A stretch of DNA of 48,498 bases from a virus. The stretch covers positions 1-48,498 of IMG/VR virus record IMGVR_UViG_3300042010_000048; one strand, given 5' to 3'. The translations under genes and the position numbers were made by a program. A model generated the notes under the pieces. The model saw only the letters and a list, made by a program, of their open reading frames with translations, had not been told where the DNA came from and ran no database searches. Shown here in pieces: positions 1-48,498 of this stretch; position 1 is the first letter of the stretch, and each line of letters opens with the position of its first letter.

Positions 1-118
1 AGTAGATGGTGTGGGGTATAATAGTTTGGTATACGCATCGGACGACCAGACTGCGCCATGATTAAATATCCAGAAGGATTACCAAGAGGGCTGCATTCCG
101 GGCGAACGTACCAGACTG
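1..118. repeat. Terminal direct repeat, left copy
   Basis: Bases 1-118 are identical to 48381-48498. They hold the last 20 codons of the J-like tail-tip gene (its stop TGA is at 59-61) and the first 20 codons of the next tail gene (ATG at 58), joined by an ATGA overlap exactly as in one continuous operon. The repeat is therefore best explained as the overlap left by an assembler on a circular or circularly permuted genome, not as a packaged terminal repeat. Removing one copy gives a circle of 48,380 bp. Confidence 0.97.
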
Positions 119-33412: not shown

Positions 33413-33849
33413 TGGCTAACGTTATCTGGCGTGGTCCTGTGCATCTTGCACAGCCTGATTCGCGCACTCTGAAGTTCACTGCTTCGACCCTGCCTGGCTT
33501 GGCGGTTTCGATCACTACCGGCCAGTTTGTAGTGGCGGCAACTTCGAAGGTTGACTTCTTCATCACCCACAATCGCGCCTACATCGGCGAAACCGTGGAC
33601 ACCGCGATCCCTGCTGGCGAAACTGGCGAAGCTTTCAAGCCTGTTCCGCAGTACGAGTTCCAGGTTCGCATGGCTGCCGCAACCTACGCTCCTGGCGCAG
33701 TGTTGAGCATCGTCAACGGTCAGTTCAAGGCCGCTGTTACTGGTGAAGTCGCTGTAGCCGCTTTCGACGAAGCTGCCTCCCGCGCTGTCGGTGCCAACGG
33801 TCTTGCCGACGTTCGCATCCTCGCTAACTCCTACGTGGTGCCTGCATAA
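33412..33849 (+). CDS. Head decoration protein (putative)
   Basis: 145 residues between scaffold and major capsid protein, with AGGAGG before the ATG. Beta-rich throughout (TASTLPGLAVSITTGQFVVA, YEFQVRMAAATYAPGAVLSI) with the final DVRILANSYVVPA. Position and composition are those of capsid-stabilising decoration proteins of this head-gene order. No sequence motif proves it. Confidence 0.75.
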   Translation: MANVIWRGPVHLAQPDSRTLKFTASTLPGLAVSITTGQFVVAATSKVDFFITHNRAYIGETVDTAIPAGETGEAFKPVPQYEFQVRMAAATYAPGAVLSIVNGQFKAAVTGEVAVAAFDEAASRAVGANGLADVRILANSYVVPA

Positions 33850-34859
33850 TGCCTATTCTGACTTTTAACAAAGAGCAAGAGGCTGCCGTCATTGGCAAGC
33901 GTCGCGCTCACAACGCCCGTCAAGAGCGTCTTGCGCGTGATAGCGAAGGCGAGATGATTGGTAACGCCTACACCATCCCTCGCGATGCTTGGGCTGCCTA
34001 CGACAACGACCTGATCACCTTGCAGCGTGCAGCGCTCGGCGTGTTCACTGACTTGGCCAGCCTGCAAAAGAACGTTCCAATCGGCAAGGTTCTGCAATAC
34101 TTCTCCAAGGTCGGCGATCAGGGCGAAGTGAACAGCTCGATTGATGGCCGTAGCCGTGCGAAAGCCGACGCTCCAGTCATTGATTACGAAGGCACCCCGC
34201 TGCCGATCTACGACACCACCTTCACCTTCGGCTGGCGCGATGTTGAAGCCGCTCGTCAAGACGGTGGCTGGCAGTACCTGGATGCCGCTACTCGCGACAA
34301 CGGCAACCGCCGCATCGTTGAGAAGCTGGAAGACCTGGTAATCAACGGTGACACCAAGTTCAACGTTGCCGGCAACCAGATCTACGGTCTGCGTACTGCT
34401 CCAGGCCGCGCTACCGGTAACTTCGGTAACGTCGATCTGGTAACCGCTACCGGTGCTCAGTGGGTTGAAGCGATCAAGCGTGTTCTTCTCGGCCTGCAAG
34501 CCAAGAACTTCTACGGTGGCGCTACCATCTACCTGAACTACGGTGACTGGTTCGCCGCATCGGTTAACGACTACGTTACCGCCGCGCCTCAGAACACCAT
34601 CCTGGCTCGCCTGATGGCAATCCCTGGTGTTGTCTCCATCGTTCCATCCACCGCTGTTCCAGTGAACGAAATCCTCGCCGTTGTAAAAGAACGCCGAGTG
34701 CTGGAAATCCTGACTGCGATGCCTGTTACCACCATGCCGATTGAACGTAAAAACTTCACCGACGAGTACAGCTTCCAGATCATGACCGCCGTAGCGCCGC
34801 AGTTCAAGCGCGACATGGCTGGCAACGCTGGTTACGCGCAGTTCGTTAAAGGCGCATAA
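33849..34859 (+). CDS. Major capsid protein
   Basis: 336 residues. LAALGVFTDLASLQKNVPIG-like helix (ALGVFTDLASLQKNVPIGKV), YFSKVGDQGEVNSSIDGRSR, YDTTFTFGWRDVEAARQDGG, EKLEDLVINGDTKFNVAGNQ, IYGLRTAPGR and the end QIMTAVAPQFKRDMAGNAGY are typical of the HK97-fold DUF2184-type capsid proteins. The strongly G/C-ending codons (GGC, ACC, AAC) suggest high expression. A terminator follows directly. Confidence 0.92.
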   Translation: MPILTFNKEQEAAVIGKRRAHNARQERLARDSEGEMIGNAYTIPRDAWAAYDNDLITLQRAALGVFTDLASLQKNVPIGKVLQYFSKVGDQGEVNSSIDGRSRAKADAPVIDYEGTPLPIYDTTFTFGWRDVEAARQDGGWQYLDAATRDNGNRRIVEKLEDLVINGDTKFNVAGNQIYGLRTAPGRATGNFGNVDLVTATGAQWVEAIKRVLLGLQAKNFYGGATIYLNYGDWFAASVNDYVTAAPQNTILARLMAIPGVVSIVPSTAVPVNEILAVVKERRVLEILTAMPVTTMPIERKNFTDEYSFQIMTAVAPQFKRDMAGNAGYAQFVKGA

Positions 34860-35260: not shown

Positions 35261-35290
35261 AAAGCCCCGAATAATGGGGCTTTATTTTTT
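35261..35290. terminator. Bidirectional terminator
   Basis: AAAGCCCC (35261-35268) pairs with GGGGCTTT (35276-35283), followed by ATTTTTT on plus and by TTTCTTTAC on minus. It separates the head genes from the minus-strand cargo island. Confidence 0.88.
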
Positions 35291-35603
35291 AGAATGGTTT
35301 CACAATCGCCTTTCGCCCATCAGAAAAATACAGTACGGCATGAGACTGTGAGCTGTATGGTGAATAGCTATCGGCGAGCATCTTCCCGTAAACATTTGGC
35401 TGGTCCTGTTCGTCTGGCGCACCCCATCTCTCGCCGCAGCATTCGCACCAGTTATCTGACTCAGTGTCCAGCTCGTAAAAAGCGGTTGATGCTTGGGCCG
35501 ACGACAGCGCCTGAATGAAAACATCCTCGCCAACGTCGTCGTTATTTACGAAATATCCACCAGAATTATTCTGATCGAAGTGATACCACTTTAAAGCTGT
35601 CAT
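35289..35603 (-). CDS. Conserved phage protein with CxCC motif, 104 aa
   Basis: KWYHFDQNNSGGYFVNNDDV at the front and DTESDNWCECCGERWGAPDE in the middle match a family common in phages (KWYxFxQNNSGGxF ... DCxCCGdRW), from memory. Probably binds zinc. Last gene of the minus-strand island. Confidence 0.75.
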   Translation of the reverse strand: MTALKWYHFDQNNSGGYFVNNDDVGEDVFIQALSSAQASTAFYELDTESDNWCECCGERWGAPDEQDQPNVYGKMLADSYSPYSSQSHAVLYFSDGRKAIVKPF

Positions 35604-35657: not shown

Positions 35658-36485
35658 TCAAGTCAAGAACTTCATAACAATCGGCGAAATCTCCTTAGCC
35701 TTAGTCACGAGAAACAAATGCCCGTCGTCAATGATGTGCATTTCAGCGTTAGGAATGCGGTTGGCGATGAATCCCATATTAACCAAGGGAATGATCGGAT
35801 CGTCATTGCCAGCCAGAACGAGAGTCGGTTGCTTGATCTTGTGCAACCAGAATGCCGATGACCACCACCAGACCGCCATGCCTTGGAGCTTGTAACCGAG
35901 TTGAGAGGTTGGCGCCTTCATTTTGTTAGCGTAACTTGCGCACAGTTCAGGATTATTCCGAAACGAGCCGCCGTAGATCTCCGGAGCGATTGCAGCCATA
36001 TGCTCAGGGTTCGTGTAGCGCTCAGGGCTAGCCATCATCATCAGAACCTTCATCGACGGCGGAACCATCGTCACGCCTGAAGAGGTAGCTGCCAGAATAA
36101 GCTTGGTGCAGCGCTTCGGATGGTCATAGGCGAACTGTTGAGCAAGGAATCCGCCCCAGGAGACACCGGCAACTGTCACCTCGTCGTAATCCAGCACATC
36201 AAGCATACGGGTTACGAGTCGTCCGAGGCCGCTGAATGTGTAAGGCAACAGAGGTGTTGATGATCCGCCAACACCAGGCACGTCGAAGGCAATCACCTCA
36301 AGATCCGGATCCAGCGCATCTACTAATGGAAATACAAGCTCCAGTGATGCGCCGATACCGTTAAAAAACAGCAGAGGCATAAGAGTTGACTTGCCTGGAC
36401 GAACAGCCGTGCGGATTGCCTGTCCGTCGATAATGACTGTGCGATAAACGAATGGTGTTGTTTTTATTTCCGTTAAGCAGCTCAT
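35658..36485 (-). CDS. phaZ: Medium-chain-length PHA depolymerase homologue (alpha/beta hydrolase)
   Basis: 275 residues from the ATG at 36485, which has AAGGA six bases ahead; an ATG at 36491 has no spacing. It contains RTAVRPGKS, FNGIGASLELVFPLVDALDP, DLEVIAFDVPGVGGSSTP, the lipase box GVSWGG (Ser109), MMASPERY, YGGSFR, KQPTLVLAGNDDP (Asp228) and IIDDGHLFLV (His256), a full Ser-Asp-His triad. From memory these blocks are nearly those of Pseudomonas PhaZ, the intracellular enzyme that hydrolyses medium-chain-length polyhydroxyalkanoate granules; the usual length is about 283, and the phage form lacks the last ten or so residues. It would free carbon and energy stored by the host. It lies in a small minus-strand cargo island with its own promoter. 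Confidence 0.9.
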   Translation of the reverse strand: MSCLTEIKTTPFVYRTVIIDGQAIRTAVRPGKSTLMPLLFFNGIGASLELVFPLVDALDPDLEVIAFDVPGVGGSSTPLLPYTFSGLGRLVTRMLDVLDYDEVTVAGVSWGGFLAQQFAYDHPKRCTKLILAATSSGVTMVPPSMKVLMMMASPERYTNPEHMAAIAPEIYGGSFRNNPELCASYANKMKAPTSQLGYKLQGMAVWWWSSAFWLHKIKQPTLVLAGNDDPIIPLVNMGFIANRIPNAEMHIIDDGHLFLVTKAKEISPIVMKFLT

Positions 36486-36505
36486 CGTCATTCCTTTGGT
36501 TTGGA

Positions 36506-36652
36506 CTACAAGAAACTCAGCACGCGCTCGTATTCTGCTGTCATTCGGTCTGCTTCGGCTTTGGCTTCTTGTTCTGTCTTGAAGCTGCCTATGATCATTT
36601 CGCCGCTGGTTACGGTGAAGGTGTTGCGGGCTTTCTGTACTGTGAAGGTCAT
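36506..36652 (-). CDS. Hypothetical protein, first gene of the phaZ unit, 48 aa
   Basis: AGGA eight bases before the ATG and a promoter upstream. MTFTVQKARNTFTVTSGEMI, then SFKTEQEAKAEADRMTAEYE resembles short phage proteins of beta-hairpin plus helix type (GxFxTxxeAxAwad). It lies 20 bases before the phaZ start and shares its message. Function unknown. Confidence 0.65.
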   Translation of the reverse strand: MTFTVQKARNTFTVTSGEMIIGSFKTEQEAKAEADRMTAEYERVLSFL

Positions 36653-36759: not shown

Positions 36760-37158
36760 ATGACACTCCAATACTCGGTAGCAGTGAACAACGCACGTCT
36801 TGACGCATTCGAAACTGCTGCCGGTACGTCGGCCAAGCTGCGAATCTATACCGGCTCTGTTCCTGCTAACTGTGCGGCGGCTGCTACGGGTACGCTGCTG
36901 GTTGAGATGGCGCTGCCGTCTGATTGGATGTCGGCTGCTTCTGCTGGCGTTAAGGCTAAGACCGGCACATGGTCTGGCACTGGCGCTGCTGCTGGTACCG
37001 CTGGCTATTTCCGCATCGTTGATACTGCTGGCACCACTGCGCACGCGCAAGGTACATGCGGACTCGGTAGCGGTGATATGTCGCTCGACAACACCAGCAT
37101 CGCCGTCTCCCAAGTCGTAACCGTCAACTCCTTCTCGCTGACGACCGGTAACGCATAA
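36760..37158 (+). CDS. Virion structural protein (putative), 132 aa
   Basis: Ala/Thr/Gly-rich with short beta strands (VAVNNARLDAFETAAGTSAK, LRIYTGSVPANCAAAATGTL, MALPSDWMSAASAGVKAKTG, FRIVDTAGTTAHAQGTCG). This is a recognisable head-tail region protein of Pseudomonas phages, from memory (LRiytGtqPancaaa..Gtlla.l.lp..a). Probably a minor capsid or fibre-like decoration. Confidence 0.7.
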   Translation: MTLQYSVAVNNARLDAFETAAGTSAKLRIYTGSVPANCAAAATGTLLVEMALPSDWMSAASAGVKAKTGTWSGTGAAAGTAGYFRIVDTAGTTAHAQGTCGLGSGDMSLDNTSIAVSQVVTVNSFSLTTGNA

Positions 37159-45791: not shown

Positions 45792-48441
45792 CGGCGGACC
45801 TTGCGAGACTGCATACACAGAACGGCGCATGACTATTGCTGCGTGGCTCGATAGTTATACGAAGGACGGTTACAAAGACGGCGACCATATGCCGATCAGC
45901 GTGAAGGTTGAAGGCGAGATCATTGATAAGTGCGACTGGTCAACCTTCGTATTCAAGCCTTCCGATTACGTAGAAATCCGAATCGAGCCAAAGGGTACTG
46001 ATCCGTTCTCAATGGCTGTTGCTATCGTTGGCGCAGTCAAAGCTGTATTTGGCATGCTCATGCCTGCGCTACCTGGAACTCCAAAGACTCCAGGTCAAGG
46101 CGAATCGCTGATTGAAAGCAGTGTAAAAGGCAACAAGGTAAAGCTCGGTGGCGTAATCCGCGAATCTTTCGGCATGCAAAAAATCTATCCAGACTTTCTG
46201 GTCCCTCCGCGAAAGTATTTCAGTGGCCCTCGAACGCAGTGGACTGAACTGTTTATGTGTGTCGGCAAGGGTAGCTTTGACATTCTTGCAGGCAACGTCA
46301 GGATTGGCGATACCCCATTGATCGCGCTTGGTGCTGAAGCCTCCTATCAAATATTTGAGCCGGGGGAAATAGTGTCCGGCAACTCCGCGTCTAACAACTG
46401 GCATAACGCGGTAGAGGTTGGCTCCAGCACTACGGGCGCGGCTGGTCTTGAGCTTACATTCACGACAGACGTTACGCCTATCGCATCCGCCGGGGCTTTT
46501 GCGTTCTCTGGCTACACCATCAGCATTCCTACCGGTCAAGGCACATTCCCTGCTGACTGGACTGTCGGACTTGTGCTGCGCGTAGTAGCCCCGTACACCT
46601 ACACCGTTACAGATGGCGGTGGATCAGCTCGCGACGTCATAACTGGCCCGCTAGGCATGCTCAACCCGACTGTTGGCGACACTATCGAAGTTACCGGAAA
46701 CAACGAAGGGAAATACACCGTAAACTCCTATACGGGCGGCGGCTCGCCTAGCATGACGCTCAACTATGAGTGGGGCGATCCTGCTAACTCCATGAACGTC
46801 GGCACTGGTCTTGCGGCTATCGGTCCCGATGGATTGCGCTTCCGAATTGCTGCGTATAGCGCTTCGTCGATCACGGTTGTTAGGCTTACATCGGCCGGCA
46901 CTGATGACGTATCGTTCCCAGGCTTTGATGCGCTCACAACGTCGTCAGGCAGCGTAGCTGTCGATGCCCTTAGTGGTTCAGGCGGATGGCGCGGCCCGTT
47001 TCCTGCTTGCCCTGAGAACGAGCTTGCGTCGCTTGTTGAGTTCGACATGTTTTTGCCGGAAGGTTTGACGCACGTAGGCGGGAAGGGCGATCTAAACGAG
47101 AGGACCGTTAGCTTCGAGGTTCAGTATCGTGAGGCTGGATCTTCTGGCGCCTATACATCCCAGTCATTCAGCTATACCGCCAACACTCTCGACCAAACAG
47201 GCTTTACCAGAACCATCTCGCTACCCTATCCAATGCAGCCAGAAGTGCGGATGCGCAAGACTGCGCCCGCAGAGGAAAGTATTCAAGATCACAACACCAT
47301 CCAATGGTATGCATTGCGCTCGCTACTTCCTTCGCCGTCAAGCTATGCCGGCGTGACGACTCTCGCTGTTAAGGTTCAGTCGTCTGACAGAATTGCAGCT
47401 CAAACCGAAAGCCTTGTATGGGTTATCGGCACCAGAATCCTACCGACTCGATCTGGCGGCTCATGGACTGTGCCAATCCCGACACGGGATATTATTCCAG
47501 CGACTGCATACATCGCCAAAAGTATTGGCTATACCGACTCTGACCTAGATCTAGCGGAAATGGATCGTCTCGACACTGTATGGAAGGCGCGTGACGACAA
47601 CTTTGACCTGCAAATAACCGACGCCAGCACCGCGAAAGATACGCTAAACGATGCTTTAGGCGCTGGATTTGCTGAACTCGCTCTTGATCGCGGGGTTATT
47701 CGCCCTGTACGCGACGAGCCTTGCACAACTTTCGAGCACATGTACACACCGCAGAACATGACTGAAGGCCTGACACGAGATGTACAGATGCCGGGGCCTG
47801 ATGATTTCGATGGCGTTGACATCTCGTATATCGATAAAGACTCTTGGGTTGAAACGGTTGTCGAATGCCGTCTTCCAGGTGATCTAGGCCGTAGAGCGGA
47901 AAAGATCAAGGCAACTGGCGTAATCGACAGAACCAAGGCCTGGCGTCTTGGCATGCGTCGTCGTCGTATCCAGCGATATCGCCGCGACCGCTACTCATGG
48001 TCTACCGAAATGGACGCTATGAATAGCCGGTATATGTCTTACTGCATGGTTGCCGACGACGTTCCCGGCTACGGCCAAAGCGCAATGATGCTGGACTTCA
48101 CTATTGGCATTGGCTATGTCTCGGTTGAATCATCCGAGCCTTTAGATTGGTCTGTAGGCGGAACTTACATGGCAGCCATTCGTAAGCAGGACGGTACAGT
48201 CTCCGGCCCATATGTAGCAACCCGAGTGGATGACTATAACTTTACGATCCCGTCTCTGGACTTCGCCCCCGATGTTAGCTGGGAATACGAGCCGCCTCAT
48301 ATCTTGTTTGGTCCGGCAACTCGTTACCACTATGCGGTGCTTGTATCAGACGTTAGCCCATCAGGCATATCTAAATGTTCAGTAGATGGTGTGGGGTATA
48401 ATAGTTTGGTATACGCATCGGACGACCAGACTGCGCCATGA
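45763..48441 (+). CDS. J-like tail-tip (central fibre / host-specificity) protein
   Basis: 892 residues from a GTG at 45763, which overlaps the peptidase gene. The front (DIFPNHLDGGPCETAYTERR, MTIAAWLDSYTKDGYKDGDH, then a hydrophobic segment with AVAIVGAVKAVFGMLM) is typical of J-like hub proteins. LGGVIRESFGMQKIYPDFLV, LFMCVGKGSFDI and the C-terminal block with CRLPGDLGRRAEKIKATGVI, AWRLGMRRRRIQRYRRDRYS follow. Several beta domains (residues 205-420) lie in the middle. It forms the tail hub and helps choose the receptor. The stop overlaps the next gene on the circular map. Confidence 0.9.
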   Translation: MIDIFPNHLDGGPCETAYTERRMTIAAWLDSYTKDGYKDGDHMPISVKVEGEIIDKCDWSTFVFKPSDYVEIRIEPKGTDPFSMAVAIVGAVKAVFGMLMPALPGTPKTPGQGESLIESSVKGNKVKLGGVIRESFGMQKIYPDFLVPPRKYFSGPRTQWTELFMCVGKGSFDILAGNVRIGDTPLIALGAEASYQIFEPGEIVSGNSASNNWHNAVEVGSSTTGAAGLELTFTTDVTPIASAGAFAFSGYTISIPTGQGTFPADWTVGLVLRVVAPYTYTVTDGGGSARDVITGPLGMLNPTVGDTIEVTGNNEGKYTVNSYTGGGSPSMTLNYEWGDPANSMNVGTGLAAIGPDGLRFRIAAYSASSITVVRLTSAGTDDVSFPGFDALTTSSGSVAVDALSGSGGWRGPFPACPENELASLVEFDMFLPEGLTHVGGKGDLNERTVSFEVQYREAGSSGAYTSQSFSYTANTLDQTGFTRTISLPYPMQPEVRMRKTAPAEESIQDHNTIQWYALRSLLPSPSSYAGVTTLAVKVQSSDRIAAQTESLVWVIGTRILPTRSGGSWTVPIPTRDIIPATAYIAKSIGYTDSDLDLAEMDRLDTVWKARDDNFDLQITDASTAKDTLNDALGAGFAELALDRGVIRPVRDEPCTTFEHMYTPQNMTEGLTRDVQMPGPDDFDGVDISYIDKDSWVETVVECRLPGDLGRRAEKIKATGVIDRTKAWRLGMRRRRIQRYRRDRYSWSTEMDAMNSRYMSYCMVADDVPGYGQSAMMLDFTIGIGYVSVESSEPLDWSVGGTYMAAIRKQDGTVSGPYVATRVDDYNFTIPSLDFAPDVSWEYEPPHILFGPATRYHYAVLVSDVSPSGISKCSVDGVGYNSLVYASDDQTAP

Positions 48442-48498
48442 TTAAATATCCAGAAGGATTACCAAGAGGGCTGCATTCCGGGCGAACGTACCAGACTG
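48381..48498. repeat. Terminal direct repeat, right copy
   Basis: Exact second copy of 1-118. It contains the true 3' end of the J-like gene (stop ending at 48441) and a truncated copy of the start of the 171-residue tail gene (48438-48498), whose full version is at 58-573. Confidence 0.97.

Follow-up and report, generated by a model that had tools for sequence, protein, structure and literature searches.

Phage auxiliary genes for photosynthesis, nucleotide metabolism and phosphate metabolism are well known. In cultures producing polyhydroxyalkanoate (PHA), phages from mixed communities carry phaC, phbB, fadJ and other synthesis-side genes, with neither phaZ nor a depolymerase mentioned in the text of that report (PMC12013262). 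Intracellular breakdown of medium-chain-length PHA (mcl-PHA) is apparently characteristic of Pseudomonas as a genus; the depolymerase PhaZ of Pseudomonas putida KT2440 uses a Ser102–Asp221–His248 triad, needs Asn35 and the FNGIG loop for activity, and ends in a C-terminal tail that is probably disordered, while its S184F variant has increased esterase activity and mcl-PHA activity lowered 16-fold (PMC12504323). In a host phaZ mutant, PHA stayed high, at 62% by weight, for 96 h or longer (PMC3918157); the depolymerase is thus the gate to the store, and PhaZ alone can govern mobilisation.

A phaZ homologue in a complete phage genome

The window, the whole 48,498-nucleotide stretch analysed here (IMG/VR record IMGVR_UViG_3300042010_000048), ends in identical 118-bp direct terminal repeats, and is therefore a complete phage genome. 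Terminase, portal, capsid, tape measure and tail genes are all present, together with lambda-like replication genes (O-like, DnaB and exonuclease VIII); a search of ten genomes, the window and nine related records of 44–49 kb, found no tyrosine integrase. The phaZ gene lies on the strand opposite to its virion-gene flanks, between capsid and neck genes as first read from the sequence, in a minus-strand cassette with the order 48-aa ORF, phaZ, DUF7296 gene, set between the capsid and structural genes (Table 1).

Table 1. Coordinates of the phaZ cassette, its flanks and related features in the window
Feature	Position	Strand	Basis
Direct terminal repeat, 118 bp	1..118	+	copy at 48381-48498
Major capsid protein (phrog_771; DUF6260), slot flank	33849..34859	+	profile matches
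Bidirectional terminator-like hairpin, between minus-strand cassette and capsid operon	35261..35283	.	consensus match only
DUF7296 / phrog_4867 gene, downstream of phaZ	35289..35603	-	profile matches
phaZ, PHA depolymerase homologue, 275 aa (277 aa from alternative ATG 36491)	35658..36485	-	TIGR02240, identity, AF2 model
Codon, catalytic His256 (His248 in P. putida PhaZ)	35718..35720	-	alignment; PMC12504323
Codon, catalytic Asp229 (Asp221 in P. putida PhaZ)	35799..35801	-	alignment; PMC12504323
Codon, catalytic Ser109 (Ser102 in P. putida PhaZ), lipase box GVSWGG	36159..36161	-	alignment; PMC12504323
Shine-Dalgarno AAGGA, 6 nt ahead of ATG 36485	36492..36496	-	sequence; 14 phages keep AAGGA or AGGGA
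48-aa leader ORF MTFTVQKARNTFTVTSGEMIIGSFKTEQEAKAEADRMTAEYERVLSFL, adjoins phaZ on upstream side	36506..36652	-	conservation in relatives
Virion structural protein (phrog_3758), other slot flank	36760..37158	+	profile match

From its first ATG the phaZ ORF (36491..35658, minus strand) has 277 codons, and from a second, at 36485, it has 275. The second start is better supported, because the AAGGA abuts the first ATG and lies 6 nt from the second, and because the homologues in L014 and L019 start there; the sequence-only reading of an intact 275-codon gene is accordingly favoured, and its ribosome-binding site is confirmed. Residue numbers refer to the 275-aa protein, with two added for the 277-aa numbering. 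The same reading's claim of an own promoter was not borne out: a consensus scan found no sigma70-like site upstream of phaZ, with overall matches at about the number expected by chance, and the DNA 5' of the 48-aa ORF is not common to all phaZ-bearing relatives. A candidate promoter picked out by eye in that DNA, TTGACG-17-TAGCCT, scored below threshold, is missing from several relatives, and was rejected.

The 48-aa ORF beside phaZ is 81–100% identical in close relatives and 41–49% in L017/L018, occurs upstream of phaZ in the unrelated contig L021 (56%), and is also found without phaZ (L120, L127, L133, L142 and others); this family appears generally to occupy first place in the minus-strand slot. 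Linkage of the DUF7296 gene with phaZ is inconsistent among relatives.

Protein identity

The window protein scores 410.4 bits against TIGR02240, the NCBIfam equivalog for poly(3-hydroxyalkanoate) depolymerase (cut-off 250.6; E = 3.4e-123), with the second-best family at 113 bits; PcaD (109.3 of 255.85 bits) and haloalkane dehalogenase (39.8 of 241) both fall under their own cut-offs. Closer similarity to other hydrolases than to PhaZ, a possibility raised at the outset, is clearly not what was found (410 against at most 113 bits), and kinship with a PcaD lactonase, a haloalkane dehalogenase (about 40 bits) or another esterase was rejected on these scores. A search of 84,980 species genomes gave 442 stretches coding for relatives, the best 80 of which are Pseudomonas-type phaZ at 64–68% identity, with titles naming Pseudomonas in all cases apart from an unplaced gammaproteobacterium and a MAG labelled Paucimonas; no chromosomal phaZ more than 68% identical to that of the window was found in these genomes. 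Homology to PhaZ is upheld by the equivalog score, far over cut-off, and by these best 80 of 442 relatives. Ten other phage PhaZ homologues score 370–477 bits against the same equivalog.

Identity with P. putida PhaZ is 67% over the shared length. The motifs GVSWGG, GNDDP and DDGHLFLV, noted from the translation, are all found in the protein, the catalytic residues align with the P. putida triad (Table 1), and Asn35 and the FNGIG loop are conserved; the lipase box has a hydrophobic residue at X1, as expected of PhaZ (PMC12504323, PMC10003648). AlphaFold2 models the protein with confidence (pLDDT 86.9) as an alpha/beta hydrolase bearing a helical cap region; the nearest folds in a structure search are general esterases, lactonases and alpha/beta hydrolases, a result that does not discriminate. 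In the alignment with P. putida PhaZ the C-terminal tail is absent, in keeping with the earlier view that this tail, and only this, has been lost.

An accessory slot between capsid and neck genes

Eighteen further IMG/VR contigs carry the gene, 82–100% identical, with its position unchanged and the structural genes again on the other strand. A capsid-based search, designed to avoid selecting on phaZ (at least 88% capsid identity, both flanks readable), gave 31 loci, of which 11 have phaZ in the slot, in opposite orientation, and 20 lack it there. Slots are nearly empty (∼200 bp) in L131, L137 and L140, and alternative minus-strand cargo includes TerB, SPFH/Band 7 and T5orf172 nuclease-like genes (slots with alternative cargo: L120, L132, L145, L130, L143, L148 and L151). 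The capsid/neck slot is an accessory slot, of which phaZ is one of several cargoes.

Phage phaZ copies show a median dN/dS of 0.07 (151 pairs), and 0.03–0.12 in a second phage group; these values indicate strong purifying selection, by which the phage PhaZ protein is maintained. Two homologues, in L013 and L199, contain an in-frame stop. The phaZ genes of L017 and L018 are diverged in the N-terminal half and nearly identical to the window gene in the lid and C-terminus, a mosaic that suggests recombination inside phaZ. In L003 and L004 the portal is 86–91% identical to that of the window and the capsid just 27%, beside the same phaZ; head-gene modules appear to be swapped in this phage group.

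Recurrence in unrelated phages

A profile search returned 51 viral phaZ loci, and none of the genes flanking chromosomal phaZ (phaC and others) was found in the 44 of these fetched with new flanks. At least eight other phage contexts carry phaZ without other pha genes. A 283,622-bp contig matches the Pseudomonas fluorescens jumbo phage Noxifer at 77% DNA identity (64% of 20.8 kb covered), and its phaZ, flanked by genes for DNA polymerase and NTP pyrophosphohydrolase, replaces Noxifer gp081; in a GC-rich group related to the Pseudomonas syringae phages Medea1 and Cruim01, phaZ adjoins a NinB gene; and L021 resembles Bordetella phage BPP-1 and Burkholderia phage BcepC6B in its replication genes. 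Baseplate genes accompany phaZ in a contig of 91 kb, and Hdf/DarB-like antirestriction genes in another; three further carriers, of 307, 229 and 280 kb, have large terminase matches. Host contamination was rejected as an explanation, with no chromosomal phaZ flanking genes at the viral loci checked and phage genes around phaZ in the contexts examined.

Some phaZ-bearing contigs hold further notable genes. A reverse transcriptase gene (phrog_1423, 2.3e-118) lies directly 5' of phaZ in a 48.9-kb phage contig (L173:6804-7964); a cysteine dioxygenase-like gene (phrog_4786), perhaps another metabolic cargo, lies ∼1 kb 3' of phaZ in L174 (8959-9627); and a TROVE/Ro60-type RNA-binding protein gene is found in a 116-kb phage contig that also has phaZ aboard (L020:15403-16908).

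The window gene has phage genes on both sides in a complete genome, and is variably present at a fixed site under selection. Its initial description as an auxiliary metabolic gene is strengthened by the fixed accessory slot, purifying selection and recurrence in unrelated phages.

Origin and host

In a tree that included Burkholderiales, rhizobial and actinobacterial PhaZ, the Pseudomonas chromosomal proteins form one clade (SH-aLRT 99), and every phage sequence lies outside this clade, the branches being long and varied; next to the clade of the window come two copies from Pseudomonas megaplasmids (SH-aLRT 94). Deep branches are weakly supported, and the tree thus does not fix the number of captures. 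Recent capture from a living Pseudomonas is not supported, given the position of the phage genes outside the chromosomal clade, and phage PhaZ appears to be an old, phage-circulating family, distinct from recent copies of genes in sampled living hosts. The megaplasmid copies, in L029 (P. serbica) and L203 (P. silesiensis pPL1), are phage-like second phaZ genes on replicons of ∼1.1 Mb, that of P. serbica lying near R2K ATP-grasp and HipA genes.

A wider and reasonably probable reading is that unrelated phages, ranging in size from 48-kb tailed to 230–310-kb jumbo phages, share this old circulating family, whose members would not be recent host copies; that emptying the host polyester would be a general, convergent strategy against PHA-storing bacteria; and that the gene would have been exchanged with Pseudomonas megaplasmids.

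The host of the window phage is probably Pseudomonas, because mcl-PHA breakdown is apparently a trait of that genus and the nearest named phages of two carrier groups infect it. Capsid relatives infect Enterobacterales, Pasteurellaceae and Pseudomonas; among 199 Pseudomonas genomes no prophage close to the window phage was found, the matches being weak and to a tape-measure domain. A Pseudomonas host would already own phaZ, so that any benefit to the phage must come from dosage or regulatory escape.

Proposed role and alternatives

The preferred reading, given a probability of roughly 0.75, is that the window gene encodes a phage-borne intracellular mcl-PHA depolymerase that mobilises the carbon store of the host. 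After infection, PhaZ would be expressed from the minus-strand cassette, dock on host PHA granules and hydrolyse the polyester to (R)-3-hydroxyalkanoic acids, which host acyl-CoA ligase and beta-oxidation could convert to acetyl-CoA and reducing power that phage replication would draw on; overall, the host cycle of synthesis and degradation would be tipped towards breakdown, in starved, granule-filled cells where carbon would limit the burst. The sequence-only reading is supported as to the PhaZ family and the phage context, with mcl-PHA activity and the host inferred; the gene is best seen as part of the old phage-borne lineage.

The main caution on substrate is the divergence of the lid, which governs substrate choice in PhaZ and is the least host-like part of the protein (identity to P. 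putida PhaZ 53%, core 71%), given the 16-fold loss of mcl-PHA activity in host S184F. The lid (133-192) is full length, with the hinge at 190-195 changed from YYWQLF to YKLQGM and Ser184 replaced by Ala. A PhaZ-derived esterase whose altered hinge directs it to other acyl esters (lipids, acyl-homoserine lactones or 3-hydroxyalkanoyl surfactants), so as to serve signalling, membrane change or lysis in place of granule breakdown, would fit these changes and the general esterases and lactonases among the nearest structural folds. However, all phage PhaZ tested score as the PHA depolymerase equivalog and none exceeds the cut-off of another equivalog; the lid retains motifs common to the window and host proteins (ASP.RY..P and IAP.IYGG) and is 93% conserved between the window and L017, within the phage clade; and other phage PhaZ lineages keep the host-like YYYQ and Ser184. 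Such a shift of substrate is considered unlikely, and the window PhaZ is likely to be active on mcl-PHA.

Distinctly unlikely as the principal benefit, and in effect a variant of the preferred reading, is that granule removal serves to clear room in the cytoplasm or nucleoid, or to free membrane, for replication, assembly or lysis; PHA can be a large part of the cell (24–62% of its weight across strains of P. putida U; PMC3918157) and jumbo phages also carry phaZ, although clearing space is compatible with a feeding benefit and sequence cannot tell the two apart. That the gene is inert, either picked up from a host by chance or joined on by chimeric assembly, might be argued from the variable content of the slot and the in-frame stops in two homologues, but is highly improbable and already contradicted by purifying selection (dN/dS 0.07) and recurrence: 18 more contigs are arranged alike, terminal repeats mark a complete genome, and a chromosomal phaZ above 68% identity was not found.

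Comparison with known systems

A virus-borne enzyme that opens the polyester carbon reserve of its host is apparently undescribed so far. No report of phage PhaZ was found in the open literature, with subscription papers and virome supplementary tables outside this scope, and no such PhaZ was found in 50,697 deposited phage genomes, from which records very near the window may be excluded and in which the best match, at the sensitivity of the search, was a lactonase-like gene of 28% identity; the initial impression that PhaZ was undescribed as a phage function is in line with both searches. The mobilisation of stored carbon by phage PhaZ would raise the testable question of whether phages use it to replicate in starved cells, and would connect infection by phages with the turnover of PHA, both environmental and in bioplastic production, with a possible loss of PHA yield in the latter; the divergent phage lids would offer natural variants of an enzyme relevant to bioplastic recycling.

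The phage esterase/lipase family phrog_789, the sole PHROG match to the window protein (1.9e-30), shares its fold, but is a distant general alpha/beta hydrolase and the match spans part of a 637-position profile. The phage genes of PHA-producing mixed cultures (PMC12013262) are likewise auxiliary genes in PHA metabolism, differing in that they act on the synthesis side and the window phaZ on the breakdown side. The second phaZ of Pseudomonas megaplasmids (P. serbica, and P. silesiensis pPL1) is closer, on a neighbouring branch at 65–66% identity, although plasmid-borne, with P. serbica also having an ordinary chromosomal-type phaZ. The PhaZ of P. putida KT2440/KT2442 (TIGR02240) is similar in sequence, catalytic triad, Asn35, FNGIG loop and lid length, to within one residue; the window protein differs from it in being phage-borne, without phaC, phaD or phasin neighbours, in its short extra N-terminus and missing disordered C-terminal tail, and in its changed lid hinge and Ser184.
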